DNA from: Marine Group II euryarchaeote MED-G35
GTDB taxonomy: Archaea; Thermoplasmatota; Poseidoniia; Poseidoniales; Thalassarchaeaceae
NCBI GenBank assembly: GCA_002457155.1
Contig: NTJS01000008.1
Span: 1-57,760 of the forward strand
Length of the DNA stretch: 57,760 nt
Reading direction: 5' to 3'
Position 1 is the first letter of the stretch, and every line of letters begins with the position of its first letter. The notes beneath the pieces are model-generated. The model made no database searches, was not told the origin of the DNA, and was given only the letters and a program-made list of their open reading frames with translations. A program made the translations under genes and the position numbers. Shown here in pieces: positions 3,907 through 40,265 of this stretch.

Positions 3907-5085
3907 ATGGATTTTGAAGAGACTGATGAGCAGAGCATGATTCGGGAGATGGTTAGGGCTTTCGCAGAAGAGAAGCTGGCCCCGACGTGCCTCGAAAGGG
4001 ATAAGGAACAGCGTGCACCACTCGAAGAATGGTTGGAATTCTGCGAAAATACTGGCCTCCAAGGAGTCACCATTCCTGATGAATATGGAGGTAGCGAGGT
4101 AGATGCTGTTTCTGAAGCTATTATTGTTGAAGAGTTGGCAAGAGTTGATCCCTCTTTCTCAGTGATGTACTGTGTCCATGTCGGACTATGCTCAATGACC
4201 ATTGCTTTGCATGGCAGTGAAGAACAGAAGAGGAAGTACCTGCCTAGATTGGTCGGAAAAGAAATCGGTGCCTACTCACTTTCTGAGGCTGGTGCAGGGA
4301 CAGACGCAGCGGCACTTGGTTGTAAAGCGAAAATCAGCGAAGATGGTATGCACTACTTATTGAATGGAGAGAAGATGTGGGTTACGAACGGATCTAGTGC
4401 GGATATCTACGTACTCTTCGCTAAGGACATTGACCATCCCGACTATGGGGAGAAGAAACATGGCGGAACAACTGCATTCATTGTTGAGAAATCGTTCGAA
4501 GGATTTTCGGTTGGTAAGAAAGAGGACAAACTGGGAATCCGTTCCAGTGATACTTGCTCTTTGGTCCTTGAAGACTGCAGAGTTCCGATTGAAAATGTAC
4601 TCAAGGGACCTGGAGAAGGTTTTCCGATCGCGATGAATGCATTGGATAACTCAAGGATTGGAATCGCGGCTCAAGCTCTTGGAATCGCACAAGGTTCCTT
4701 CGAGGCAGCCCTGAACTATGCGCATGAGAGAGTTGCATTCGGCAAACCAATCGCGCATCACCAGAGTGTTGGAAATTATCTAGCAGAAATGGCCACAAAA
4801 ACCACTGCTGCGAGACTGATGGTTTACAAAGCAGCATTGGCCAAAGAAAGGCATTATGGCGAGGGAGCCCCCCGCCATACAAAGGATGCAAGCATGGCAA
4901 AGCTGTTCGCTGGGGACACAGCGATGTGGGTTTCTGAGAGAGCAGTCCAAGTCCTAGGCGGCTATGGTTACACAACTGACTTCCCAGTTGAGAGGTTCTT
5001 CAGAGATGCCAAGATTACCCAAATATACGAGGGGACACAAGAAGTCCAGAGGATTGTGATCAATAGATCAATTTCCCCGGAGTAG
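3907..5085 (+). CDS. Acyl-CoA dehydrogenase
   Basis: A 392-residue flavoenzyme with the usual three-domain plan: N-terminal helical domain starting with a DEQSMIREMVRAFAEEK helix, a middle FAD-binding beta domain containing YSLSEAGAGTDAA (about 120-132) and EKMWVTNG (154-161), and a C-terminal helical domain with AFGKPIAHHQSV and QVLGGYGYTTDFPVERFFRD. The catalytic base is expected at the Glu in QIYEGTQE near the C-terminus, the position used by short-chain and butyryl-type dehydrogenases. It oxidises an acyl-CoA and passes electrons to the EtfAB pair encoded at 12.2-13.9 kb. The stop overlaps by one base the GTG start of the next gene (TAGTG), so the two are probably co-translated. The chain-length specificity cannot be assigned. 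Confidence 0.93.
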   Translation: MDFEETDEQSMIREMVRAFAEEKLAPTCLERDKEQRAPLEEWLEFCENTGLQGVTIPDEYGGSEVDAVSEAIIVEELARVDPSFSVMYCVHVGLCSMTIALHGSEEQKRKYLPRLVGKEIGAYSLSEAGAGTDAAALGCKAKISEDGMHYLLNGEKMWVTNGSSADIYVLFAKDIDHPDYGEKKHGGTTAFIVEKSFEGFSVGKKEDKLGIRSSDTCSLVLEDCRVPIENVLKGPGEGFPIAMNALDNSRIGIAAQALGIAQGSFEAALNYAHERVAFGKPIAHHQSVGNYLAEMATKTTAARLMVYKAALAKERHYGEGAPRHTKDASMAKLFAGDTAMWVSERAVQVLGGYGYTTDFPVERFFRDAKITQIYEGTQEVQRIVINRSISPE

Positions 5086-6341
5086 TGGTTGATCAAGTGT
5101 ACCCAATCGAGAATATCAGAAGTTGCTTCCCATCGCTAGGAAGGATTGCTGGAGGAAGAGAGGCCGTTTTCTTTGATGGTCCCGGGGGCAGTCAGGTCCC
5201 CTCTTCGGTTACTGATGCAATGAGCGATTACCTATTGAGTAACAATGCCAATACTGGGATGAGTTTTGCGACATCATTGGAGACCGATGAGTTGATTTCG
5301 GACGTATTACAGGCATGTGCCGATTTCATAGGTTGTGATGACCCTGCAGAGATTGTCTTCGGGCAAAATATGACGAGTCTGAACTTCCAACTAGCTGGTG
5401 CTCTTAGCAGAACTTGGGGCCCTGGGGACGAGGTGGTAGTAACCAGGCTAGACCATGACGGAAACGTTGGCCCCTGGTCTCTAGCAGCAGAGTGGTCGGG
5501 AGCCACACTAAGAAAAGTAGACATTAGATCAGAAGACTGCACTTTGGACATGGAATCAGCGTATGAAGCAATTACGGAACGAACAGTTTTGGTCGCAGTA
5601 GGAGCTGCTTCCAATCTTTCGGGAACGATTAACGATGTTAAGAAGATCATAGAAATTGCACATGGTGTTGGTGCTGAGGTAGTCGTTGATGCTGTCCATT
5701 TCGCGCCACACGCACTGATTGACGTCTCTGAGTTGGGGTGCGATTTCCTTCTCTGTTCTCCATACAAATTCTTCGGACCTCACCAAGGCCTACTGTGGGG
5801 CAAGAAGGAACGTTTGGAGGGCCTTCCTGTAGCAAAGTTGAGAGTTGCGACTGAGGAGTTGCCATTCAGGTGGATGACTGGGACTCAGAGCCACGAGGGG
5901 ATGGCGGGGACCAAAGCCGCTATCGAACACATCGCATGGGTCGGGAGAGAGGTCAGTGGCAATCCCGATCTAAGTAGGAGAGACGCCCTAATCGAAGCAT
6001 ACAGTGCTATTGAGGAGTACGAGCAGGACCTTTGCCTACGAATGCTAGAAGGCCTAGGCAGTATTGAGGGGATTGAGGTTTGGGGGATTACCGAACCAAG
6101 CAGGATCTCAGAGAGGGCGCCAACCGTTTCATTTACACATCCGTCAATGAGTGCAAAGGAAATCGGAGAAAGGTTGGCGGAAAGAGGCATTTTCGTATGG
6201 GCTGGTAATTTCTACGCCCTGGAGCTTACGGAAGCCCTGGGGCTAGAGCCAGAAGGGGTCCTCAGGGCAGGGGTTCTACACTACAATTCAATGGAGGAAG
6301 TGGATTTCTTCGTTGAATCTGTTGCAGAAATATTAGAGTGA
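5085..6341 (+). CDS. Cysteine desulfurase-like PLP enzyme (class V aminotransferase fold)
   Basis: 418 residues, fold type I PLP enzyme of the aminotransferase class V group. FFDGPGGSQVP near the N-terminus, DEVVVTRLDHDGNVGPW, VVVDAVHFAPHA (the Asp that contacts the pyridine nitrogen and the following His) and SPYKFFGPHQG (Schiff-base Lys) can be seen. These features match the cysteine-desulfurase-like family typified by TIGR01976 rather than SufS or IscS proper. The GTG start shares one base with the upstream acyl-CoA dehydrogenase stop, which points to a catabolic setting rather than the Fe-S genes 29 kb away. The stop sits within a short palindrome shared with the convergent HMG-CoA synthase stop. 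The substrate is unknown. Confidence 0.85.
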   Translation: MVDQVYPIENIRSCFPSLGRIAGGREAVFFDGPGGSQVPSSVTDAMSDYLLSNNANTGMSFATSLETDELISDVLQACADFIGCDDPAEIVFGQNMTSLNFQLAGALSRTWGPGDEVVVTRLDHDGNVGPWSLAAEWSGATLRKVDIRSEDCTLDMESAYEAITERTVLVAVGAASNLSGTINDVKKIIEIAHGVGAEVVVDAVHFAPHALIDVSELGCDFLLCSPYKFFGPHQGLLWGKKERLEGLPVAKLRVATEELPFRWMTGTQSHEGMAGTKAAIEHIAWVGREVSGNPDLSRRDALIEAYSAIEEYEQDLCLRMLEGLGSIEGIEVWGITEPSRISERAPTVSFTHPSMSAKEIGERLAERGIFVWAGNFYALELTEALGLEPEGVLRAGVLHYNSMEEVDFFVESVAEILE

Positions 6342-28399: not shown

Positions 28400-28436
28400 T
28401 TATACAGGTCTTGACTTTGGCTCTCTTAGAGAGCCA
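28400..28436 (+). promoter_or_regulatory. TATA-like box and inverted repeat at the start of the giant subtilase gene
   Basis: A TTATAC element at 28400-28405 lies about 30 bases before the ATG, at a distance that would place transcription start near 28427-28430. The arms TGGCTCTC (28418-28425) and GAGAGCCA (28429-28436) are a perfect 8-bp inverted repeat with the spacer TTA; the second arm ends on the first base of the ATG. This is either an operator over the start site or a hairpin hiding the start codon. Confidence 0.45.
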
Positions 28437-31400
28437 TGGTCAGAGGTCCAGGAAAGTTCTTCCCGTTTGCCATTGCGATTTTGGTTTTCTTGCTTGATGT
28501 GCCCATAGGAGCAGCGCATGTCCCTGATGTAGAGAATTCTGATTCTACAGTTTTTTTTGAGGGTGAAACTCCAACCATCACATCATTGATTTGCGGGGAA
28601 GAAGAATGCCAGAAAGAACGCAATCCGACCCATACCCCTCTCGATTCTAGTCCTCCAGTAATGGAATTTGGATGGTGGAATGGTTTCTGGTCCGACTCCG
28701 ACTCCAATGGTTTTGATGACCGTCTCCAACTTATCGTGACAGGAGAAAGGGAGTCCGTCTCAGTAACTTCAATCGTTGGTGATGATGGCAGAGGAACTGT
28801 TGCTATCATTGTCCACTATGCGTGGCACCCAGGAGTTGCGGACATCGACTCGTTAAAGGGAGTAATCGAGCAACACGGCTGGGAAAACGAGGGGTCTTGG
28901 TTCATGGTAATGGACCATCTAGATGCTATCGTCCTTGATCATGTCCCAGTGAGTTCTCTTATCGGCATATGGGGCCTAGATGGAGTTGTCCTTGTCGAGG
29001 AGCAGAGCGTCATTGTTCCTTATCTGGACAAAGCCACAAAGGGCTCTAAGGTAAGAACATCGGGAGTTTATGACGAGGCTTTGAGGGGGCTTGGGTACCA
29101 TGGTTCTGGAAAGGTGATCGCCATTCTTGACACAGGGGTCGATAATGAGCACTTCTCACTTGACGATTTCTCGGACAATAACAAGGATAACACAAAGGAT
29201 CCAGATGACATAGAGGACCCCAAATGGGTTGGCGGGTGCGATGCAACGGGAGTGGGGCAATCAGGCTGCAACGAGGAGGACCCGGATGATGGCGACGGGC
29301 ATGGAACTCACGTTGCTGGAATTGCCCTAGGGACCGGAGACTCCAGAAGGGTGAACCAGGGCTACTCCCCGGGCTCTTATCTGGTCGACGTGAAGGTCAT
29401 GGAGGACTACGGCGGAGGAAACTCCCAATCTATTCTTGCCGGCATTCAGTGGGCCATTACCAATAGAGACACCGATTGGGGCAACAACGCATCAAGCAGA
29501 GGAATCGATGTCCTCTCTATGTCCTTCGGTAGAGCTAGCTCTGCAGTTGGGGACAACAACGAAGACGGGTCGTCGGCAGAAGGAAACCTTGTCAACCAAG
29601 CCTCAGAGAATGGTTTGGTCTGTGTAGCGGCAATTGGAAATGATGGGGCCAACAATGTCAACTCCGTCGGCGCGGCGGATACCTCGATCACCGTTGGATG
29701 GCTGGATGACAAGAATACGATAGCCCGCAGTGATGACTCCATTAGCTCAAACTCCAACTATGGCCCGAGGACCGATGATGATGACGGAGACTCATGGGAT
29801 GAAATGAAACCATGGGTAGTGGCCCCTGGTTCAAACATCAACTCGGCACAGCATGCCGAATCTTCTGGAATAATCCCTGGTTCTGAAGTAAACAGGGCTA
29901 GTGATGACTACACGCAGTTATCGGGATCTAGCATGTCGACACCTGCAGTAGCAGGACTCGTTGCAATAATGCTAGAAATTGGCGAAATGCGAGATATGCC
30001 ATTCATGGACGAGGGCGAGCCGGGAATAGAGAGATATGAGGCGATAAGGAGTTTCCTTGCAAGTGGTTCTGAGTTCAGAAATGAATGGTCCGAGGACGAT
30101 AGCTGGGAAGGCAATAGCTGGAACACTAGGTATGGATTCGGGATCATTGATGGGGTGGAGGTTGCCAGCCAGATGTTCGGTGGCGGGGGGGTTACCAACG
30201 ATTCGGGAGGGCCTCAATCACCTCAAGAGGGGCATTGGGTGGAAATCGAGAGCCCTGCGGCTTACTCGTGGCTTGTCGAGGGTAAGTCATACAACTTGCG
30301 TGGCCACATAAACGAGCACGGCGAGGACAATGCGACCATAGAAGAAGTTGTAGCAAAGGTAGAAATGAAGTTCAAGAAAGCAACAAATACACCCAAGGAG
30401 AAGTTGATTCTTGTAAATTGGACAAGAACGACTGGAATTACAAACTGGACCATTCCCTTCGAAGTTCCTGATCTGCCTGACGAATATTCCGATGTCTCAA
30501 TCACAGGGATGGTTGCGGCGAGAAACGACATCGGCAGATGGAGCAATACAACTGAGTTCTTTTTCCCTGTCGGAATTGTCAATTTCACCCTAGAGGGGCC
30601 AAGTGGCCTTGCCGATATCCAAGGCTCGGTGGAGGTCTTCGGGCAGTTCCAGTCTATTGGAAACGCGACAATCCAATGGAGGGTCGATAACGAAGACTGG
30701 CAGGATGCCAGCAATTACCATGATGGTCGCTGGACAGAAGAAGACAGGAAGGGGCAAAAGCACTCCTCATCCAATAGGAGGGGAGATGGGAGCAATGACC
30801 CAGATTTCCAGGGTCACGCGTACTGCACCCATATGTTCAGACAGGCAGAAAATACAAACACGCAGGGAGAGACAATAGTCGGTTGCAAGGATAACGATCG
30901 TGGATGGACCGGTTGGAGTTTCGATTGGGACACGACCCAATACAAAGATGATGAATACAGACTCTCGGTAAGGATAGTCAGTGCCATAGGGGTTTTCTCA
31001 GAGGAATTGAGGAGGTTTGTGCAAATCAACAATGTCGAGCCAATGCCAGACTTGGTTTTCGTTAGTAAATCGATTTCGGTTCAGGAATTCGGTATCCCAA
31101 TGCAGGAATCCTACGTCAACACATTCTTGGAAGTCAGGGCGACCATTAGGAATACGGGAGATCAGGCCGCTACCGGCGTAGGGGTCATTCTGGAAGAATG
31201 GGGAGAGAGACGGGATGAATACGTCATTTCGAATATAGATACTGGGCAGTTCGTTGAAGTTGTACTTTACTGGAACCCCATGGATGCAGGCGATGCTCTG
31301 TTATCCATTTCAATCGACCCTTTGAATTCGATTCAAGAGTTAGACGACAACAACAACGAACTAGATGGGACTTTCTCTGTAGTCCCAAGGCCACCAGGTG

Positions 31401-33406
31401 TTGATCTTGCAATTAGAGCTGGGTCAATTTCAGCTGCGACAGTCTCTAGCCCGATTCCCAGGCCAGACGAGTCGGCCGTTGTCCAAGCAAGGGTGGACAA
31501 TCTAGGATCGCAGGACGCTGTCGGAGTCTCGGGGACTCTGGAAATGATGACTGAGAGAGGTTGGGAATTCATTGGGAATTCAACTACTCCATTGGTTCTG
31601 GGCGGGTCTCATTCGATGATTTCTTTTCCCTTTGCTCCAAACATTTCCGGACCACTGGAAGTGAGGGTGAGTGTCATCTTGGAAAGCGGAGGGGACAATG
31701 ACTGGTCCAACAATGTACGGGTCAAGACCCTACTTGTTGACAGTACGACTTTGTCTGGTCCGAGGGATGCTGATCTGAATCCCGGAGAGAGCCCCATTGC
31801 CATTGTAAGTCTGGATAGCGAAGAGGGTGATGATCTGCTGATTGGGGAGAAGGATGGAACTCTGTTAATGTACAAACTAACTGAGAGTAAATCGTTAATT
31901 GAATGCAATAACGTGATTGAAGAACGGTGGTCTGGAGATATTTCGATTATCGGAACGGATGAAGAGTTTGCCCACATTGTGTGGACGAGGCGTTACATGG
32001 GGCCAAACTGGTTCCTAATGCAGACCCTAAGTTACTCCACTATCGACTCTAGTTGTAGAATCGCCCCCCCTCAGGACTTACTCCCGGGGATTCCACTGTC
32101 CGATGGCAAGTATTGGGGTATTGACATGGACATAAGGGACTCCGAGATTCTTGTTTCTGGCTACCACAGGGATGTTTTCAGCGGAGGAAGTCTAGAGGAC
32201 GAGACTAACATCTTCCTAATTCATTCAGAAAGCCCGCTCTCCTCGGACGACTGGACTCTGCAGACTGGAATAATCAAGGACATCGATGCTGACCCTTACC
32301 AGATTGATTCGCTATCAGTTGAATTCGGACATGATCAGGCACATATCCTCTATCAAACGATCAGGAACGACACTACTGGAAAGGACCGCCTTGGGGTCTG
32401 GTACTCGCATGGAATGATTGATCAGGAAACGTGGGCATATCGAAAGGCGGTGGGTGACGAGTCAGCCATCCCAATGCTGACCGTGATTGAAGATGATGAT
32501 GGCGATACTTTGGTTTCGCTTTGGAGAGAAGGGGACCCCCAAGACTCCGAACTGGTCGTATTCGTGACTGATTCAAATTTCATGACCAATGGCGAAATGG
32601 AAACGAGGATTCCAGCAAGAGGGTTGGCGGGAATAGGCGTGGTGGAGTCTGAGAGGGGGATTCAGGTTCTATTCGATCGGGTTGGGGCAAATGGCCCTCA
32701 AGTCGAGTACGGGCTGATTGATGTTGATAGTGGTTGGATAGGTCTCTCAGACACTTTGGTCAGAGGGCAATACAAATCGATGGATAGGTCCGAAGATTCT
32801 GGAGAAACGATGATGGTCGTCTCATCATCTGACGGTTGGCAAATAAGGACTCTGATAGACGATGGTTCTTCTAGACGCAGTGGGAGCCTATCTGACCAAC
32901 TAAGATCATCCCTCGGCTTGGACCAAGAGAGTTTCGAAATCCTAGTGATTGGTGTCGCATTGGCCGTTCTGATACTTGGAATGGTAACCTTAGTCGGTCT
33001 TTCCGCACAGGGAGTCAGGTGGGTCGGAAGGAGAGGGTCGATTGACAAGAATGCTAGCGTGGTGATGGAGGATGACGTAGTGGACCTAGTGGGGGAAACA
33101 GATCTCCCGGTTGGCTCAGATGAGGTCGAAATTGTCCAAGATGATTCTAATGATGATATTGCCGTAAGCGGACGTGATAGTAGGAGAGCAAGGAGGGACA
33201 GGAGGAATTCCGAAGAAGGTGGTTTGCTAGACACAACTGGTTCTGGCACTATTGAACCCGTATTGGAAATCCAGATGCCAGATTCCCCCATGGCACCACC
33301 GATTGCTGGACAGGTAACATGCCCTGGGTGCAAGAGCAGGTTCGCAACAGAACCAGGAGTCATGTCGATGAAGTGCCCAGTTTGTGGATCGAAAATTGAT
33401 CTCTGA
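28436..33406 (+). CDS. Giant membrane-anchored subtilisin-family (S8) protease
   Basis: 1656 residues. A signal peptide (about 8-24) is followed by a prodomain-like region (about 90-200), then the S8 catalytic domain with Asp232 in AILDTGVD, His289 in GHGTHVAG and Ser499 in GSSMSTPAVAG, and Asn in AAIGNDG. Downstream are Asp-rich loops, a long array of Ig/CARDB-like beta domains (for example NTGDQAATGVGVILEEW and NLGSQDAVGVSGTLEMM), and a beta-propeller-like region. A transmembrane helix (about 1500-1523) leads to a cytoplasmic tail ending in a C-x2-C...C-x2-C zinc ribbon. It is exported and anchored, degrading external or surface proteins. It lies behind the rhomboid gene. Coding is unbroken. 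Confidence 0.93.
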   Translation: MVRGPGKFFPFAIAILVFLLDVPIGAAHVPDVENSDSTVFFEGETPTITSLICGEEECQKERNPTHTPLDSSPPVMEFGWWNGFWSDSDSNGFDDRLQLIVTGERESVSVTSIVGDDGRGTVAIIVHYAWHPGVADIDSLKGVIEQHGWENEGSWFMVMDHLDAIVLDHVPVSSLIGIWGLDGVVLVEEQSVIVPYLDKATKGSKVRTSGVYDEALRGLGYHGSGKVIAILDTGVDNEHFSLDDFSDNNKDNTKDPDDIEDPKWVGGCDATGVGQSGCNEEDPDDGDGHGTHVAGIALGTGDSRRVNQGYSPGSYLVDVKVMEDYGGGNSQSILAGIQWAITNRDTDWGNNASSRGIDVLSMSFGRASSAVGDNNEDGSSAEGNLVNQASENGLVCVAAIGNDGANNVNSVGAADTSITVGWLDDKNTIARSDDSISSNSNYGPRTDDDDGDSWDEMKPWVVAPGSNINSAQHAESSGIIPGSEVNRASDDYTQLSGSSMSTPAVAGLVAIMLEIGEMRDMPFMDEGEPGIERYEAIRSFLASGSEFRNEWSEDDSWEGNSWNTRYGFGIIDGVEVASQMFGGGGVTNDSGGPQSPQEGHWVEIESPAAYSWLVEGKSYNLRGHINEHGEDNATIEEVVAKVEMKFKKATNTPKEKLILVNWTRTTGITNWTIPFEVPDLPDEYSDVSITGMVAARNDIGRWSNTTEFFFPVGIVNFTLEGPSGLADIQGSVEVFGQFQSIGNATIQWRVDNEDWQDASNYHDGRWTEEDRKGQKHSSSNRRGDGSNDPDFQGHAYCTHMFRQAENTNTQGETIVGCKDNDRGWTGWSFDWDTTQYKDDEYRLSVRIVSAIGVFSEELRRFVQINNVEPMPDLVFVSKSISVQEFGIPMQESYVNTFLEVRATIRNTGDQAATGVGVILEEWGERRDEYVISNIDTGQFVEVVLYWNPMDAGDALLSISIDPLNSIQELDDNNNELDGTFSVVPRPPGVDLAIRAGSISAATVSSPIPRPDESAVVQARVDNLGSQDAVGVSGTLEMMTERGWEFIGNSTTPLVLGGSHSMISFPFAPNISGPLEVRVSVILESGGDNDWSNNVRVKTLLVDSTTLSGPRDADLNPGESPIAIVSLDSEEGDDLLIGEKDGTLLMYKLTESKSLIECNNVIEERWSGDISIIGTDEEFAHIVWTRRYMGPNWFLMQTLSYSTIDSSCRIAPPQDLLPGIPLSDGKYWGIDMDIRDSEILVSGYHRDVFSGGSLEDETNIFLIHSESPLSSDDWTLQTGIIKDIDADPYQIDSLSVEFGHDQAHILYQTIRNDTTGKDRLGVWYSHGMIDQETWAYRKAVGDESAIPMLTVIEDDDGDTLVSLWREGDPQDSELVVFVTDSNFMTNGEMETRIPARGLAGIGVVESERGIQVLFDRVGANGPQVEYGLIDVDSGWIGLSDTLVRGQYKSMDRSEDSGETMMVVSSSDGWQIRTLIDDGSSRRSGSLSDQLRSSLGLDQESFEILVIGVALAVLILGMVTLVGLSAQGVRWVGRRGSIDKNASVVMEDDVVDLVGETDLPVGSDEVEIVQDDSNDDIAVSGRDSRRARRDRRNSEEGGLLDTTGSGTIEPVLEIQMPDSPMAPPIAGQVTCPGCKSRFATEPGVMSMKCPVCGSKIDL

Positions 33407-33415
33407 GGTTAGGGA

Positions 33416-34045
33416 ATGACTGCAATTCTACTCGCTTCTGCCTCCGAAAGGAGAAGAGGCATTATGGCAGAGTTCTCTGAAATAGATGGAATAGAATTGA
33501 GATTCAGCGTATTGAAAGAGCCCGAGCCCGAGCCTTCGAATAATCTTGAGGTTCATTTGCAAGTCGAAGCCTCCTGCATGCATAAGGCGAGATCTGCTGT
33601 ATCGGAGCTTGGTTGTTTTGAAAACTCAGATGTAGAAATGATAGTGGTTTCTGACACGCTGGTAGAGGATCCTGACGATAGTCGGGTCGCATTGGGCAAG
33701 CCGGAGGACAAGGTTAGCGCAGCTTCCACCCTGATCAGACTCTCTGGCCGCAGACACAAAGTTTGGTCTTCGACGGCAATCATCACTAGAAATGGGACTG
33801 GTTTGGAAGTTGGTGCAGGTTGGCGAGCGGCGGTCTGGACTGATTTCTCAATAGTGGAATTTGATGAAATAGGAGTGGACGAAATGGAGGATTTGATTGC
33901 CAGTGGATCTTGGTTTGGGAAGGCTGGCGGGTATGATCTAGCCGGGAAGGCTGGTTCTTTCTCAAGGGTAATCGAAGGGGAGGATGTGACTGTTCTAGGT
34001 TTCTCATCCCGTGCATTCGAAGAAATTGGGGGAGTACTTCTCTAG
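33416..34045 (+). CDS. maf: Maf-like nucleotide pyrophosphatase
   Basis: 209 residues. It starts with ILLASASERRRGIM, the Maf signature LASxSxRR, and the second motif VVSDTLVEDPDDSRVALGKPEDKVSAASTL covers the metal-binding DT(x) region. GSWFGKAGGYDLAGKAGSF (about 165-183) matches the C-terminal GKAGgYGIQG pattern. Maf proteins hydrolyse modified or non-canonical nucleoside triphosphates. It begins 9 bases after the subtilase stop. Its own 3' end overlaps the convergent NifU-like gene by four bases in a shared CTAG. Confidence 0.9.
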   Translation: MTAILLASASERRRGIMAEFSEIDGIELRFSVLKEPEPEPSNNLEVHLQVEASCMHKARSAVSELGCFENSDVEMIVVSDTLVEDPDDSRVALGKPEDKVSAASTLIRLSGRRHKVWSSTAIITRNGTGLEVGAGWRAAVWTDFSIVEFDEIGVDEMEDLIASGSWFGKAGGYDLAGKAGSFSRVIEGEDVTVLGFSSRAFEEIGGVLL

Positions 34046-34539
34046 ACGAAGGCGACGCCCCCGAACTTCAAGACGAAATCGCGCTGAATCTCGTCGAACC
34101 AGTCAAGCATTGACGAGGCAAAGCGGACTTTGCAGACCTCATCATCATGCAGCAAGTCGTCTTGGATGCCCTGTAGGGTTCCTGGAGCCGCTCCACAGGA
34201 AACGCATGCCCCGTCCAGATCGATGACTAGTGATAGGGCCCTATTCCCGTCACTTCTAACCTCAATTTCCCCTCTAGAAACGACCAGGGCCCCCCCATGC
34301 CCCTCCAGGGCCGCCCTAACAGGGCCAAGTCTTGCCATCAGCGCCGGGACCAATGATTTGTCTTCAGACTCAAATAATTCAAGAAGCGACAACGAAAGAA
34401 GCCTAGAAGTCTCGATTGGGTCATTTCTTTCTGATACCCGACGTTCTGCCTCGTTCTGGATGGCCTCGCTAATCTGAGACCTATACTTGTCCTCTAGTTC
34501 ATCTGGGACCCCAGTATCGTCATCTCCATTATTCATCAA
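34042..34539 (-). CDS. NifU-like Fe-S scaffold (C-terminal domain)
   Basis: 165 residues. The C-terminal 95 residues are a NifU C-terminal domain: RAALEGHGGALVV, then DGACVSCGAAPGTLQGIQ with C112 and C115, the CxxC that holds a transient cluster. Residues 1-60 are an acidic helical extension without the IscU-like domain. It faces sufC with 49 bp between starts, a context for Fe-S cluster assembly. Confidence 0.88.
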   Translation of the reverse strand: MMNNGDDDTGVPDELEDKYRSQISEAIQNEAERRVSERNDPIETSRLLSLSLLELFESEDKSLVPALMARLGPVRAALEGHGGALVVSRGEIEVRSDGNRALSLVIDLDGACVSCGAAPGTLQGIQDDLLHDDEVCKVRFASSMLDWFDEIQRDFVLKFGGVAFV

Positions 34540-34588: not shown

Positions 34589-35377
34589 TTGAATACTCAA
34601 TTAGTTCCGCTAATTCTGAGAGATAACTTGAGACTCCCATTGCTAGAGATCAAAGACCTGCATGCAGGCATTGACGGAAATGAAATCCTAAAGGGGATTA
34701 ATCTGAAAATTGGACCCGGTGAAATTCATGCCATTATGGGTAGGAACGGAAGCGGAAAAACCACTGCTGCCAATGTCATAATGGGGCATCCGGACTTTGA
34801 GGTAGCGGAAGGGGATGTGATTCTGGAGGGGGAGAGCCTACTAGAAATGGAATCTTGGGAAAGGGCTCGGAAGGGAGTATTCCTCTCATTCCAATACCCT
34901 CAAGCAGTTCCAGGACTTCAGGTTGGAAATTTCCTCAGGAAGTCTGTTGCTAGCATCAGAGGCGAGGAGGAGGCCAAGGGCGCTGCCTTCAGGGAAAAGT
35001 TGACAATGGCGATGGAATCTCTCGATATCCCTCGTACTTTCATGTCAAGGTATGTCAATGATGGTTTCAGCGGTGGTGAGAAGAAGCGTTTTGAAATCCT
35101 ACAAATGATGCTCCTAAGTCCTCGCCTTGCAGTTCTCGATGAGACTGATAGTGGCTTGGACATAGATGGAATAAGGACTGTATCCGAAGGAGTCAATGCC
35201 GCTATCAGGGGGACTGATTCTGGGGCATTGATAATCACCCACTACTCTAGGATTCTAGAACATGTACAGCCAGATATGGTGCATGTCCTATTAGATGGAA
35301 AGATTGTATCTTCAGGAGGCCCTGAGCTGGCTACAAAACTTGAAGAGAGAGGCTACGAATGGCTGAAACAAGAATGA
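34589..35377 (+). CDS. sufC: Fe-S assembly ATPase SufC
   Basis: 262 residues from TTG 34589. IMGRNGSGKTTAANVIMG (Walker A), FSGGEKKRFEILQMM (signature), AVLDETDSGLDIDG (Walker B) and TH in ALIITHYSR match SufC. The DETDSGLDIDG variant is characteristic of SufC compared with other ABC ATPases. It forms the SufBC2D complex that assembles Fe-S clusters. sufB follows after nine bases, then sufD, the standard order. Confidence 0.95.
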   Translation: MNTQLVPLILRDNLRLPLLEIKDLHAGIDGNEILKGINLKIGPGEIHAIMGRNGSGKTTAANVIMGHPDFEVAEGDVILEGESLLEMESWERARKGVFLSFQYPQAVPGLQVGNFLRKSVASIRGEEEAKGAAFREKLTMAMESLDIPRTFMSRYVNDGFSGGEKKRFEILQMMLLSPRLAVLDETDSGLDIDGIRTVSEGVNAAIRGTDSGALIITHYSRILEHVQPDMVHVLLDGKIVSSGGPELATKLEERGYEWLKQE

Positions 35378-35386
35378 GGTTCTGAG

Positions 35387-36799
35387 ATGGAGGAAAACAG
35401 TGATGCTCGTGGGGCAGTCGGGGAATACAAGGCCGGATGGCATGATCCAGAAAACTCAACGATTAGATTCGACTTTGGCCTTTCAGAGGAGGTAGTTAGG
35501 GAAATATCCCGTCTAAAGAATGAGCCCCAGTGGATGACTGAGATTCGGGTTAAGGCATTCAAACACTTCATACAAAGGCCTATGCCGACATGGGGCAACA
35601 TGTCGATGTTGGAGGAAATTGACTTCGACAATATCTGCTACTTTCTGAGATCATCTGATTCAACCAAGAATGACTGGGATGACGTGCCGGATGACATCAG
35701 AAATACATTCGAAAGGCTTGGAATACCAGAAGCAGAGCAGAAGTGGTTGTCAGGAGTATCAGCTCAATACGAGTCAGAAACAGTATACCACAGCATCCGT
35801 GAGGACTTGGAAAGGCAAGGGGTAATTTTCCTAGACATGGACAGCGGACTGAGCGAATACCCCGAGATCGTGAAAAAGTGGTTCTGTTCGGTAGTGCCTT
35901 ACTCCGATAACAAATTCTCTGCGCTAAACACCGCAGTCTGGTCAGGTGGATCGTTCATATATGTCCCAGAAGGGGTTCATGTTGAGATGCCGGTTCAGGC
36001 ATACTTTCGGATCAACGCGAAGAATATGGGGCAGTTCGAGAGAACTCTGATTATTGCCGACAAAGGGAGCAGCATCCATTACGTCGAAGGATGTACCGCC
36101 CCTACCTACTCGACTGACTCTTTACACTCAGCAGTAGTGGAATTGATAGCACTTCCAGGCTCACACATTCGGTACTCTACTATCCAAAACTGGAGTTCAA
36201 ATGTATACAATCTAGTAACAAAGAGAGGGATAGCGCATGAAAAGGCGAAGATTGAGTGGGTTGATGGAAACATCGGAAGTAAACTAACCATGAAGTATCC
36301 CGCTGTGATTCTTAAGGGAGAAGGGAGCCATGCAGAAGTGATTTCGGTCGCATATTCTGGAGAAGGTCAGCACCAAGATGCAGGGGCCAAGATTCATCAC
36401 CTAGCATCCAACACAACCAGCAAAATCCTCTCAAAGAGCATTAGCAAAAATGGAGGCAGGGGGTCTTACAGGGGCATGGTGACAGTTTCGCCCAAAGCGA
36501 ATAACTGCAAGCTTAATGTTGTCTGTGATGCCCTAATCCTGGATGAGGGGAGCAGATCAGACACGTACCCTACAATGGAAGTAGCAAACCCAACTGCAAG
36601 ATGCGAGCACGAGGCAAGCGTTTCCAAGGTTAGCGATGAGCAATTATTCTACCTTATGAGTCGTGGACACACAGAGGAAGAGTCCCTAGCAATGATTGTC
36701 AACGGTTTCTTCGAGCCCTTCACCAGGGAACTACCCATGGAATACGCAGTGGAACTCAATCAACTGATGGCTCTTGAGATGGAAGGAAGCATAGGTTGA
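35387..36799 (+). CDS. sufB: Fe-S cluster scaffold SufB
   Basis: 470 residues, normal length. [19 protein letters not shown] (about 189-207), [13 protein letters not shown] (227-239, with the cysteine position seen in SufB), and [21 protein letters not shown] at the C-terminus are hallmarks of SufB. The right-handed beta-helix core carries the persulfide tunnel. It starts 9 bases after sufC and ends 9 bases before sufD. There is no SufS or SufE/SufU gene in the cluster. Confidence 0.96.
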
Positions 36800-36808
36800 G
36801 GCCGGATT

Positions 36809-37912
36809 ATGGATTCGGCTTCGAGGTACCTCAGTCTGGAGAAGCCAAACAAGGCAGATCATCTCTGGAGGTACACACCCTGGAAGAAGGTCCATCCCAC
36901 TGGAGACGTGTCCGAGATCCCCCTACTAGGGCAACCTGAGATTAGCTTGGGCGTCATTGATGGTTCGGACCTCCCTCCAGGAATCGAGTTGAAACTAGGC
37001 GCAGCAGGGGAGCCTGATTTCTCCAGGAGTAGTGCTTTTACAAATTCATTCCTTCATGCCTCGGCAGAGTCTTCTCAATGGACGTTGGTCGTGGACAAGG
37101 GTTTCTCTTCAGAGAAACCAATCATTCTTGAGGTTGATACAGGCGATTCCCCATCCATTGCACATATCTCATTGGAAATAGGGAAGACATCGGAATTTGA
37201 GTTGATAACCAGAGTCACTGGTAGCAGCGAATGGTTCGGACTACTTAGGACCGGTCAGATTCAAGATGGAGCAGTGGTGAATGATGTTGTAATCGGACTC
37301 CTAGAGAGGGGAACTATGCTGCGCTCCGACAGTATTGACATTTGCCGAGATGCTCAAGTAAGAGCGGGTACTGTTTCTTCCGGTTCGGAGAGGACGAAGA
37401 GCGATCTACGGTACATTATGGGGGAATCTGGTGGAAACATCAGGGTCCTGGGATCGATCCTATCTACGGATTCAATGCACTTGGATCACCACATAGAAAT
37501 CCACCATGAAGCGCCGGAAACATACAGCCGGCTATCGTGGCACTCTGCTTGTGGAGGGAAAAGCAGGACCATAGGAACTGGGATGCTAACCATCAGAAAA
37601 GGCTCCAGAGGAGCAGATGCAGCACAGATTTTTCACAACCTACTGCTTTCCAAATCGGCAGAGGCCGATTCTATCCCAGAACTGGAGGTGATGGAGAATG
37701 ACGTCGTTGGTTGTGGGCATGGCACGGCAAATGGACCCATTGACGAAGAGCAGATGTTTTACCTCAAGACCAGGGGATTCGATGAGGATGATGCAAAGAG
37801 ATCATTGATTGCGGCGTTCCTCAATTCAACTCTCTCGGAGATGGGAGGGGAGGCCCTACACGAATGGCTCGTAGGCGAGTTATCTCTCCAACTGGAAGCC
37901 CTCAACGCGTGA
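36809..37912 (+). CDS. sufD: Fe-S cluster assembly protein SufD
   Basis: 367 residues. It pairs with SufB: LDHHIEIHHEAPETYSRL, SRGADAAQIFHNLLLSKSAEADSIPELEV and CGHGTANGPIDEEQMFYLKTRG (about 306-327) show the conserved C-terminal beta-helix, including the Cys-Gly-His of SufD. The N-terminal helical domain (DHLWRYTPWKKV) is short. It is third in sufCBD, followed 24 bases later by a Cys-rich micro-ORF. Confidence 0.93.
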   Translation: MDSASRYLSLEKPNKADHLWRYTPWKKVHPTGDVSEIPLLGQPEISLGVIDGSDLPPGIELKLGAAGEPDFSRSSAFTNSFLHASAESSQWTLVVDKGFSSEKPIILEVDTGDSPSIAHISLEIGKTSEFELITRVTGSSEWFGLLRTGQIQDGAVVNDVVIGLLERGTMLRSDSIDICRDAQVRAGTVSSGSERTKSDLRYIMGESGGNIRVLGSILSTDSMHLDHHIEIHHEAPETYSRLSWHSACGGKSRTIGTGMLTIRKGSRGADAAQIFHNLLLSKSAEADSIPELEVMENDVVGCGHGTANGPIDEEQMFYLKTRGFDEDDAKRSLIAAFLNSTLSEMGGEALHEWLVGELSLQLEALNA

Positions 37913-37935
37913 GAAGGGGAAATTAATTTAGCCCG

Positions 37936-38094
37936 ATGTCAGACGATTTAGGCATGGATAGTGATCATTGCAAGGATTTTCTCTGCCTATGTGGTTTCAG
38001 GGGGGATGCCATTCCAATGCGGCAGCACATGGAGTGCCCTCGTTGCTTCAGAGTGGTTGAGGCGTGTTGCGAAGGGGTTCCCGAATATTGCTAA
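37936..38094 (+). CDS. 52-residue cysteine-rich micro-protein downstream of sufD
   Basis: An ATG at 37936 opens a 52-residue frame with eight cysteines: C12, C17, C19, C34, C37, C44, C45 and C52, plus two histidines (H11, H31). CLC and CPRC followed by CC and a C-terminal Cys suggest one or two zinc or Fe-S sites. No family is recognised. It begins 24 bases after the sufD stop on the same strand and ends before DUF2085, so it could be the last gene of the suf transcript. No strong Shine-Dalgarno sequence precedes it. The unusual cysteine density argues for a real gene rather than chance. Confidence 0.6.
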   Translation: MSDDLGMDSDHCKDFLCLCGFRGDAIPMRQHMECPRCFRVVEACCEGVPEYC

Positions 38095-38136: not shown

Positions 38137-38928
38137 GTGAAATCTATGAAGGCAGTCTTTTCAGCGCCAATTGGGGAACAAATGCTTCTGAAAAATGGAT
38201 TGCGGGACAGGGGGCACGAGGAGAGGGTCTCCAAGATTCTAGGTGGTGTCGCATTTGGATACCTTGCATTATGCTTCATAGCTCCCTATCTTCTTCCCTC
38301 GGATTCAGTGCCAGAGCTCTCAGGAAGAGCAAATGCTATCGATTATGCATTCGAAAACAGTTGGGGAAATGATGGTCATGAAGAAGGGGGTTCGGTTGGC
38401 CATGACCAGTCGCTGCACGGTGGTAAATTTGTGTGGAGTGAATTGAATCCAATTTGGGCACTGGCATATGGTTTTGGAGATTTGAATTGTCATCAAAAAC
38501 ATGAGAGATCGTGGGAAATAAATGGCAATCAGATGCCAGTATGTGCAAGGGACATCGGAATATTCCTAGGATTCTCCCTGGGTTGCCTTTTCTTCTTGTT
38601 GAGAGGTGTCAACAGATGGACTGTTAGGGATACGTTCCTTTCAGTATTCCCTGACAAATGGCTATTCGAGATTTACGAGAAAGACAAGCGGATGATTGTG
38701 ATGCTATCGATAATGGGCATGGGGTTGGTTCCAATGGGGATTGATGGTTTCACTCAATTGCTTCTCGGTTCATACGAGTCAAACAATTTGCTCAGGATCA
38801 TCACGGGATCAGGTGCAGGGTTCGTTGGCGGTTGGTGGTTTTGTTCGGCATTCTCAGCTAGACCCAAATTCTTCCAAGAAGCTGCCAACGTCACGCTTCC
38901 CGCTGGTTCCAGACTAGTAGTAAAGTGA
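38137..38928 (+). CDS. DUF2085 membrane protein
   Basis: 263 residues from GTG 38137, or 260 from the ATG at 38146. Four to five transmembrane helices surround a region with NCHQKHERSWEINGNQMPVCARDIGIFLGF, the DUF2085 core (CHQ...ERS...Q.PVCAR..GIY.G). GLVPMGIDGFTQLL and ESNNLLRIITGSGAGFVGGWW complete the family pattern. Function is unknown. The conserved Cys and His residues could bind metal. It is 42 bp after the Cys-rich micro-ORF. Its 3' end is two bases from the convergent thymidylate kinase fusion. Confidence 0.82.
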   Translation: MKSMKAVFSAPIGEQMLLKNGLRDRGHEERVSKILGGVAFGYLALCFIAPYLLPSDSVPELSGRANAIDYAFENSWGNDGHEEGGSVGHDQSLHGGKFVWSELNPIWALAYGFGDLNCHQKHERSWEINGNQMPVCARDIGIFLGFSLGCLFFLLRGVNRWTVRDTFLSVFPDKWLFEIYEKDKRMIVMLSIMGMGLVPMGIDGFTQLLLGSYESNNLLRIITGSGAGFVGGWWFCSAFSARPKFFQEAANVTLPAGSRLVVK

Positions 38929-38930
38929 TT

Positions 38931-40265
38931 TCACTTTCCTAACCACCAATCGACCAAGGATTCGATATTCTCGGGGGCTGGCCTCCCCTCTATCCCACTG
39001 CCTAATATCGACAATCGGCTGATTGTTTCCATCAATGCACGCTCATGCCTCCCCGATTTGACCATCTGCCCCAAGGAGAAGCGGATGTGCGTACCCGGGT
39101 TGAGAGACTGCCATCTACTGATTTCCTTACGAAGGGGCCAAATTGCGAGAACAAGACGTCCAAATGGGAAGATCTCCTCTCTTAACTGTGATTTTGGTGC
39201 CTCTCGCCCGACTAGATTCTTCCTCCTGTAGACCCAACCCAGTTCTTTGAGGAACCTGATTATCCTCTGCGTGTGCCTTTTAGAAACAGATCGAACCGGC
39301 CCCATTGAAGATCTGAGTTCGGAAATCTCGGCCGAATTGATTAGAGAAAGAGTACCACATACAGAGGACATTGAGTGGTTTAGGATGTTTTTTGGATAAT
39401 TATGGTGTTCTTTTTCCATTGAGGAAAGGGACTTTTTATGGCTCTCCTGGGTTGATTTGAGGACTTTCCATGGTGCGTCCCCGTCCAACCATCCCAACTT
39501 TGTCTTCGGTGGTGCAATGCCAATATCTGGAAGTGTGCTTTGGTTTTGTGATTCCCTTACAATAGCCCTAATCTGTAATTGGTCAACTTGTTCAATTTCG
39601 ACATTGATTGGAGTTGGTCTGCTGTTCATGAATGAGCGAATTGCCTCCCTCAGGGAGTTACGAAGTTGATTCTGAGTCCCTTCGTTTGAAATCGGGCCCA
39701 GTATTGCACCCATGTCGAATGGGGTTGGCATTTCCATTTCTCCTGAGAGTAGCTGCCTGTATCCATCTCTGATCCGAATCTGTAATTCTGATGTCTCAAA
39801 GTACTCTTCCTTGCTGGAGAGGTCGCGGAGAGTTCCCTTTGAGATTCTCTCCAAGGCGATTTCTGGATCGCAATCTACCCAGATACAAAGATCCGGTATT
39901 AATGCGGCAGAATTAATCTGAGCGGTCCTCTCTAGTCCGATTCCGCCAACAATTCCCTGATACACAAGAGAAGAGTGGACATTTCTCTCACTTACTACTG
40001 CCCTGCCTTCCTGAAGGCGTGGGAGGATCCATCCATGGGAGTGATCCAACCTATCTGCCGCGAAAAGTCCTGCCTCCTGCTCAGGCGATAGTGTCTGTCT
40101 CCTGACTGAATCTATTGCCAGCCTCCCTAATGCGTGATCCCTCCTAGGCTCGGCTGTTACCTCTACAGATCTGAAGCAGAACTCGGATTGGAGAACCTCG
40201 TGCACAATCTGTGTGGCTAGGCCTTTCCCACTGCCATCCCCGCCTTCAATTGAGAACAGATACAT
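38931..40265 (-). CDS. Thymidylate kinase-like protein with a ~230-residue unknown C-terminal domain
   Basis: 444 residues, twice a normal thymidylate kinase. Residues 1-205 are the kinase: FSIEGGDGSGKGL (P-loop, 4-16), a Glu-Pro-Arg-Arg LID/TMP segment (TAEPRRDH), ADRLDHSHGWILPRLQEG and SSLVYQG. The usual DRY of the DRYxxSSxAYQ motif is SERN here. The C-terminal half is unrecognised. It contains a possible winged-helix segment, SAEISELRSSMG through RHTQRIIRFLKELGWV (about 310-345), and an aromatic tail. dTMP kinase activity is likely if the ERN change is tolerated, and the second domain may bind DNA. It is the first gene on this strand before two membrane-protein genes (40282 and 41031). Confidence 0.75.
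   Translation of the reverse strand: MYLFSIEGGDGSGKGLATQIVHEVLQSEFCFRSVEVTAEPRRDHALGRLAIDSVRRQTLSPEQEAGLFAADRLDHSHGWILPRLQEGRAVVSERNVHSSLVYQGIVGGIGLERTAQINSAALIPDLCIWVDCDPEIALERISKGTLRDLSSKEEYFETSELQIRIRDGYRQLLSGEMEMPTPFDMGAILGPISNEGTQNQLRNSLREAIRSFMNSRPTPINVEIEQVDQLQIRAIVRESQNQSTLPDIGIAPPKTKLGWLDGDAPWKVLKSTQESHKKSLSSMEKEHHNYPKNILNHSMSSVCGTLSLINSAEISELRSSMGPVRSVSKRHTQRIIRFLKELGWVYRRKNLVGREAPKSQLREEIFPFGRLVLAIWPLRKEISRWQSLNPGTHIRFSLGQMVKSGRHERALMETISRLSILGSGIEGRPAPENIESLVDWWLGK

Follow-up and report, generated by a model that had tools for sequence, protein, structure and literature searches.

The window, a stretch of 57,760 nt, carries sufC (34589-35377, +), sufB (35387-36799, +) and sufD (36809-37912, +), spaced by 9 nt and assigned by Pfam to ABC_tran (sufC) and SUFBD_core (sufB; sufD with an E-value of 4.5e-43). 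An ATG separated by 23 nt from the sufD stop codon opens a forward-strand frame (37936-38094) whose translation, MSDDLGMDSDHCKDFLCLCGFRGDAIPMRQHMECPRCFRVVEACCEGVPEYC, has 52 residues, eight of them cysteines. This translation and the Pfam calls on the neighbours bear out the first-pass annotation, which had placed an eight-cysteine microprotein directly behind sufCBD. The downstream neighbour encodes a DUF2085 membrane protein (38137-38928, +; PF09858, E = 9.9e-24), and beyond it lies a thymidylate kinase frame of 444 aa (38931-40265, -), with a kinase domain at residues 6-174, a long C-terminal extension that has no Pfam match, and a synteny that is kept in the window's family. On the other side, sufCBD adjoins an opposite-strand gene for a NifU-like (Nfu-type) protein (34042-34539, -), which scores 22.8 bits against a Pfam cut-off of 27. 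A very long frame further upstream (28436-33406, +) appears subtilisin-like by eye; its C-terminus, preceded by a transmembrane-like stretch, looks like a zinc ribbon (CPGC...CPVCG).

The likeliest coding sequence of the microprotein gene is shorter than the frame, running from an inner ATG at 37954 to the stop codon at 38092-38094 (37954-38094, +; 46 aa, MDSDHCKDFLCLCGFRGDAIPMRQHMECPRCFRVVEACCEGVPEYC). This ATG is taken as the likely start because homology begins there, with homologues aligning from MDxDHC, and because a conserved promoter lies 24-38 nt upstream. The start codon of MDxDHC is ATG in 58 loci and GTG in 33. In the window, the predicted archaeal promoter (37916-37930, +) consists of a BRE-like GGGGAAA (37916-37922) and a TATA-like TTAATTTA (37923-37930). 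The alignment of 62 suf-linked loci shows GGAAA and an AT-rich box 24-38 nt ahead of the start codon; in 14 aligned non-suf loci an AT-rich box is equally far from that codon, and positions -28 to -25 fall within the box in both sets. With the TATA-like box just 5 nt ahead of it, the upstream ATG at 37936 is probably not part of the transcript, and the six residues that it adds are common to the closest kin only. The 52-residue frame first proposed thus exists, but the onset of homology and the position of the promoter favour the inner start. Most transcripts of H. volcanii are leaderless (PMC4983044); by analogy with these and with archaeal BRE/TATA promoters, the microprotein gene is probably transcribed alone, as a leaderless message beginning at about 37954. 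Rfam has no match at the locus and so gives no sign of an RNA element.

Short cysteine-rich frames do occur by chance in the window. In particular, Markov simulation of sequences matching its dinucleotide make-up yields about 0.55 frames per window with at least seven cysteines in 46 aa, versus three present; composition alone therefore cannot exclude a chance frame, and conservation decides. Across nonredundant coding sequences (123 pairs with unsaturated pS), the microprotein has a median dN/dS of 0.043, while the other two frames exceed 1.5. Moreover, variability at codon positions 1, 2 and 3 of the gene is 0.146, 0.115 and 0.474, so that the third position varies three to four times as much as the first and second. 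The microprotein gene is a genuine coding sequence under strong purifying selection, and a chance open frame without function, refuted by this dN/dS and by conservation in two orders, keeps a negligible probability.

Among 84,980 prokaryote genomes scanned, relatives at E ≤ 1e-3 occur in 71 contigs, at 60-98% identity, with titles that all name Thalassarchaeaceae, Thalassarchaeum, Poseidoniales, Marine Group II, or less specific euryarchaeal or Thermoplasmatota taxa. The first-pass annotation had staked its proposal on tblastn finding the frame and its cysteines conserved in close relatives, and both are. Within the window's order, about 148 genomes of the window's family and 171 of its sister family were searched (estimated from handle ranges); 96 genomes match at E < 1e-10, every one of them in the window's family. 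No match in the sister family is better than 0.002, and the sampled members of that family have SUF genes while the microprotein gene is absent. Diverged copies occur in 7 of 21 genomes of the class's other order, which is probably Marine Group III, and the remaining sampled phylum, which marks the reach of the profile search, gave weak partial matches only (E ≥ 5e-4). In seven further genomes (G011, G020, G025, G242, G249, G252 and G307), no microprotein gene follows the intact sufD and the rest of the available assembly has no convincing match, an absence that is provisional because the assemblies are incomplete. Two others (G018 and G016) carry copies broken by an in-frame stop, which lie behind an intact sufD (at about 2880-3030 of L143 and about 2355-2480 of L144). 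Because the gene is absent or broken in genomes with an intact sufD, it is classed as accessory and is apparently dispensable for SUF, and its repeated loss fits a conditional role.

An alignment of 37 distinct sequences shows which residues selection has retained. Cys11, Cys13, Cys28, Cys31, Cys38, Cys39 and His25 are present in all 37; Cys6 is kept in the window's family, while the sister order lacks Cys6 but has Cys44. Every intact member in the two orders thus has seven cysteines and one histidine, or eight potential ligands. Of the eight cysteines in the original claim, seven are kept per member; the eighth, the C-terminal Cys46, is confined to the closest relatives and is a lineage extra. 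The layout read from the alignment of the window's family is C-x4-C-x-C-x11-H-x2-C-x2-C-x6-CC. It includes a putative first metal knuckle, CLCG (residues 11-14; 37984-37995, +), whose consensus CxCG is invariant; a putative second knuckle, QHMECPRC (residues 24-31; 38023-38046, +), with invariant His25, Cys28 and Cys31; and a vicinal cysteine motif, CCEG (residues 38-41; 38065-38076, +), which is invariant in intact copies and has Cys39 replaced by tyrosine in both stop-broken ones. The non-cysteine positions QHxECP, VVEA and EG are conserved as strongly as the cysteines. The constant set of seven cysteines and one histidine suggests eight ligands, for example in two tetrahedral sites, and lends good support to the metal binding first proposed from composition; the C6/C44 alternation cannot prove eight ligands, because it is effectively one evolutionary switch.

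Searches of Pfam, NCBIfam, PDB and viral families returned no significant match to the microprotein; for Pfam and NCBIfam, this covers the known families of Fe-S carriers and scaffolds. The best PHROGs match in an alignment scan was PHROG_12399 (4.8e-4), with aligned stretches, where seen, of 17-25 residues around the cysteines, and a match to DUF1363 (0.0081) was not reproduced with eight other members; both were set aside as cysteine-motif matches. Two scans of viral contigs found no relative of the microprotein, and phages and plasmids gave NrdD zinc ribbons and noise only. AlphaFold2 models have low confidence (pLDDT 60.7 and 69.0), with short strands only, around the two knuckles; Foldseek with these models found nothing at E < 1, the models being too uncertain. 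The non-significant matches are mainly to zinc proteins (the RING-like TMEM55B, rubredoxin, L40e, RING domains, NrdD and RPB9).

The closest counterparts in kind are the CPxCG-related small zinc-finger proteins, such as Brz of Halobacterium salinarum and the Haloferax volcanii proteins HVO_0758 and HVO_2753, which like the microprotein are stand-alone archaeal proteins of under 70 aa, accessory and lineage-specific, with paired cysteine knuckles that include CPxC. By the definition in PMC2253796, such proteins have fewer than 100 residues and a CPxCG, CPxCx or CxxCG pattern; the microprotein has 46-52 aa and an invariant CPxC at residues 28-31. The second Cys/His pattern of that definition, with 2-3 intervening residues and 7-40 residues away, is found in only 6 of the 37 members, through a non-conserved histidine. 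The microprotein falls outside the strict definition; its N-terminal knuckle is CxC, with one intervening residue, and it differs also by its additional HxxC and CC putative ligands. The zinc ribbon of NrdD, the class III anaerobic ribonucleotide reductase, has the same CGFxG...ECPxC core and the same CGF-to-CPxC spacing of 15; however, this ribbon is one domain within a large enzyme and its first knuckle is CxxC, and the similarity is not statistically significant. RING and cross-brace domains (TMEM55B, HOIL-1/HOIP RING2) likewise have eight ligands, putative in the microprotein, and an HxxCxxC centre, and they are the best, non-significant, structural matches of the first AlphaFold model. 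The RING consensus is C-x2-C-x(9-39)-C-x(1-3)-H-x(2-3)-C-x2-C-x(4-48)-C-x2-C; the spacings of the microprotein lie outside it, and the microprotein is shorter and archaeal. It is a distinct family, but ordinary in kind as an archaeal metal-binding microprotein.

On balance, the gene probably encodes a lineage-specific, stand-alone archaeal microprotein that is zinc-ribbon-like, has its own transcript and acts as a small adaptor or regulator of conditional benefit. The protein made from this probably leaderless transcript would be a mini-domain of two beta-hairpin knuckles, CxCG and HxxCPxC, folded around a bound metal that is most likely zinc; the CC pair and C6 (C44 in the sister order) would supply further ligands, possibly for a second site. 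The conserved QHxECP and VVEACCEG surfaces would contact a protein, RNA or DNA partner, with benefit under some conditions only. Strong purifying selection and the C6/C44 alternation with eight ligands maintained count for this reading, and its stand-alone aspect is favoured by the gene's own BRE/TATA promoter and the same spacing of the AT-rich box at non-suf loci. The partner-binding, probably regulatory role is proposed by analogy: Brz, a regulator of bop, fails when its Cys/His residues are mutated (PMC2253796), and 12 of 16 zinc-finger microprotein mutants of Haloferax volcanii have condition-dependent phenotypes (PMC6562870). The lack of a significant structural or family match and the low AlphaFold confidence count against it, as does the vicinal CC pair, which would also suit thiol redox chemistry; moreover, a CPxC-type motif does not prove zinc, because, of 14 C(P)XCG zinc fingers predicted in H. 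volcanii, only 9 bound zinc (PMC11241148). Of the functions first suggested, a zinc ribbon regulator thus fits the conserved cysteines and histidine best, with the metal, fold, partner and regulatory role all being what we infer. That the microprotein is a new compact Cys7His domain whose roughly 40 residues accommodate two metal sites, with a ligand shifted between C6 (MGIIb) and C44 (sister order), and possibly a redox-switchable CC pair, is conceivable rather than probable.

The first-pass annotation had also suggested a cluster carrier from the position of the gene. Such an Fe-S carrier or SUF accessory would take a cluster from SufBCD and hand it on, or would regulate suf. The cysteines suffice for a cluster, and in 55 of the 71 contigs sufD is the immediate upstream neighbour, at 38-74 nt; however, the gene is served by a conserved promoter of its own and lies elsewhere in 15 contigs (one is undecided), so that no constant genomic link with sufBCD is seen. 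Two of these other settings have a flotillin gene and a fatty acid desaturase-family gene nearby; in a third (L139), the gene is flanked by a VTT-domain gene and an unassigned gene, with the DUF2085-tmk neighbourhood retained. In L139, the microprotein gene is separated from DUF2085 by an opposite-strand gene (5018-5863) of about 280 codons that has no Pfam match, and many suf-linked loci have a gap resembling this one. In the sister order, the gene adjoins urocanase and the Fe-S protein gene sdhB, but its arrangement with sdhB is tail-to-tail and not an operon, and in G533, G534 and G540 the SufBD genes lie on contigs other than the microprotein's. A hint from G447 of sister-order carriers without SUF was dropped, since SufBD is present in these three genomes and partly in G452. 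With the losses beside an intact sufD and the absence from the SUF-bearing sister family, these observations weaken the suggestion: the link to SUF is positional only, and Fe-S carriage is possible but disfavoured, an unlikely function overall.

A thiol redox protein, in which a zinc-stabilised scaffold with a redox-active CC pair feeds electrons to a partner enzyme as in the NrdJ domain, is similarly improbable. The C-terminal domain of NrdJ, the class II ribonucleotide reductase, combines zinc with a redox pair in the layout C-x2-C-x9-C-x2-C-x2-C-x5-C (PMC5704485). The C-x-C-x11-H-x2-C-x2-C-x6-CC of the microprotein is comparable, with a similar order of cysteine pair, C/H-x2-C-x2-C stretch and terminal cysteines, but a histidine stands where one redox cysteine would be, and no sequence homology to the NrdJ domain was detected. 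An NrdJ-type reductase occurs in sampled MGIIb and sister-order genomes, and a shorter one in sampled MGIIa; nearly all of these NrdJ already carry their own terminal domain, part of the enzyme, whether the microprotein gene is present or not. The ribonucleotide reductase loci sampled (L211-L230) show a long enzyme of about 1200 aa with a cysteine-rich terminal domain shared by MGIIb and the sister order, and an MGIIa enzyme of about 800 aa with a DDCLSCGS-like end. The microprotein as a missing NrdJ domain in trans was rejected, as NrdJ ends in C-x2-C...C-x2-C-x2-CG...GC with or without the gene (the end in G029 was not covered).

A metallothionein-like zinc store or buffer would match the cysteine content of 15-17% and the eight potential ligands. 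Metallothioneins are usually variable between their cysteines; the strict conservation of QHxECP, VVEA and EG implies instead a specific fold and partner surface, making a store very unlikely.

Marine Group II are among the most abundant archaea of the surface ocean; they are uncultured, and what their smallest genes do has hardly been explored. The gene behind sufCBD defines one microprotein family among them that is strongly selected, with a fixed putative ligand set and its own promoter. Its position misleads about its function, and the usual CPxCG search pattern would miss proteins like it. The lineages that lost the gene are natural knock-outs.
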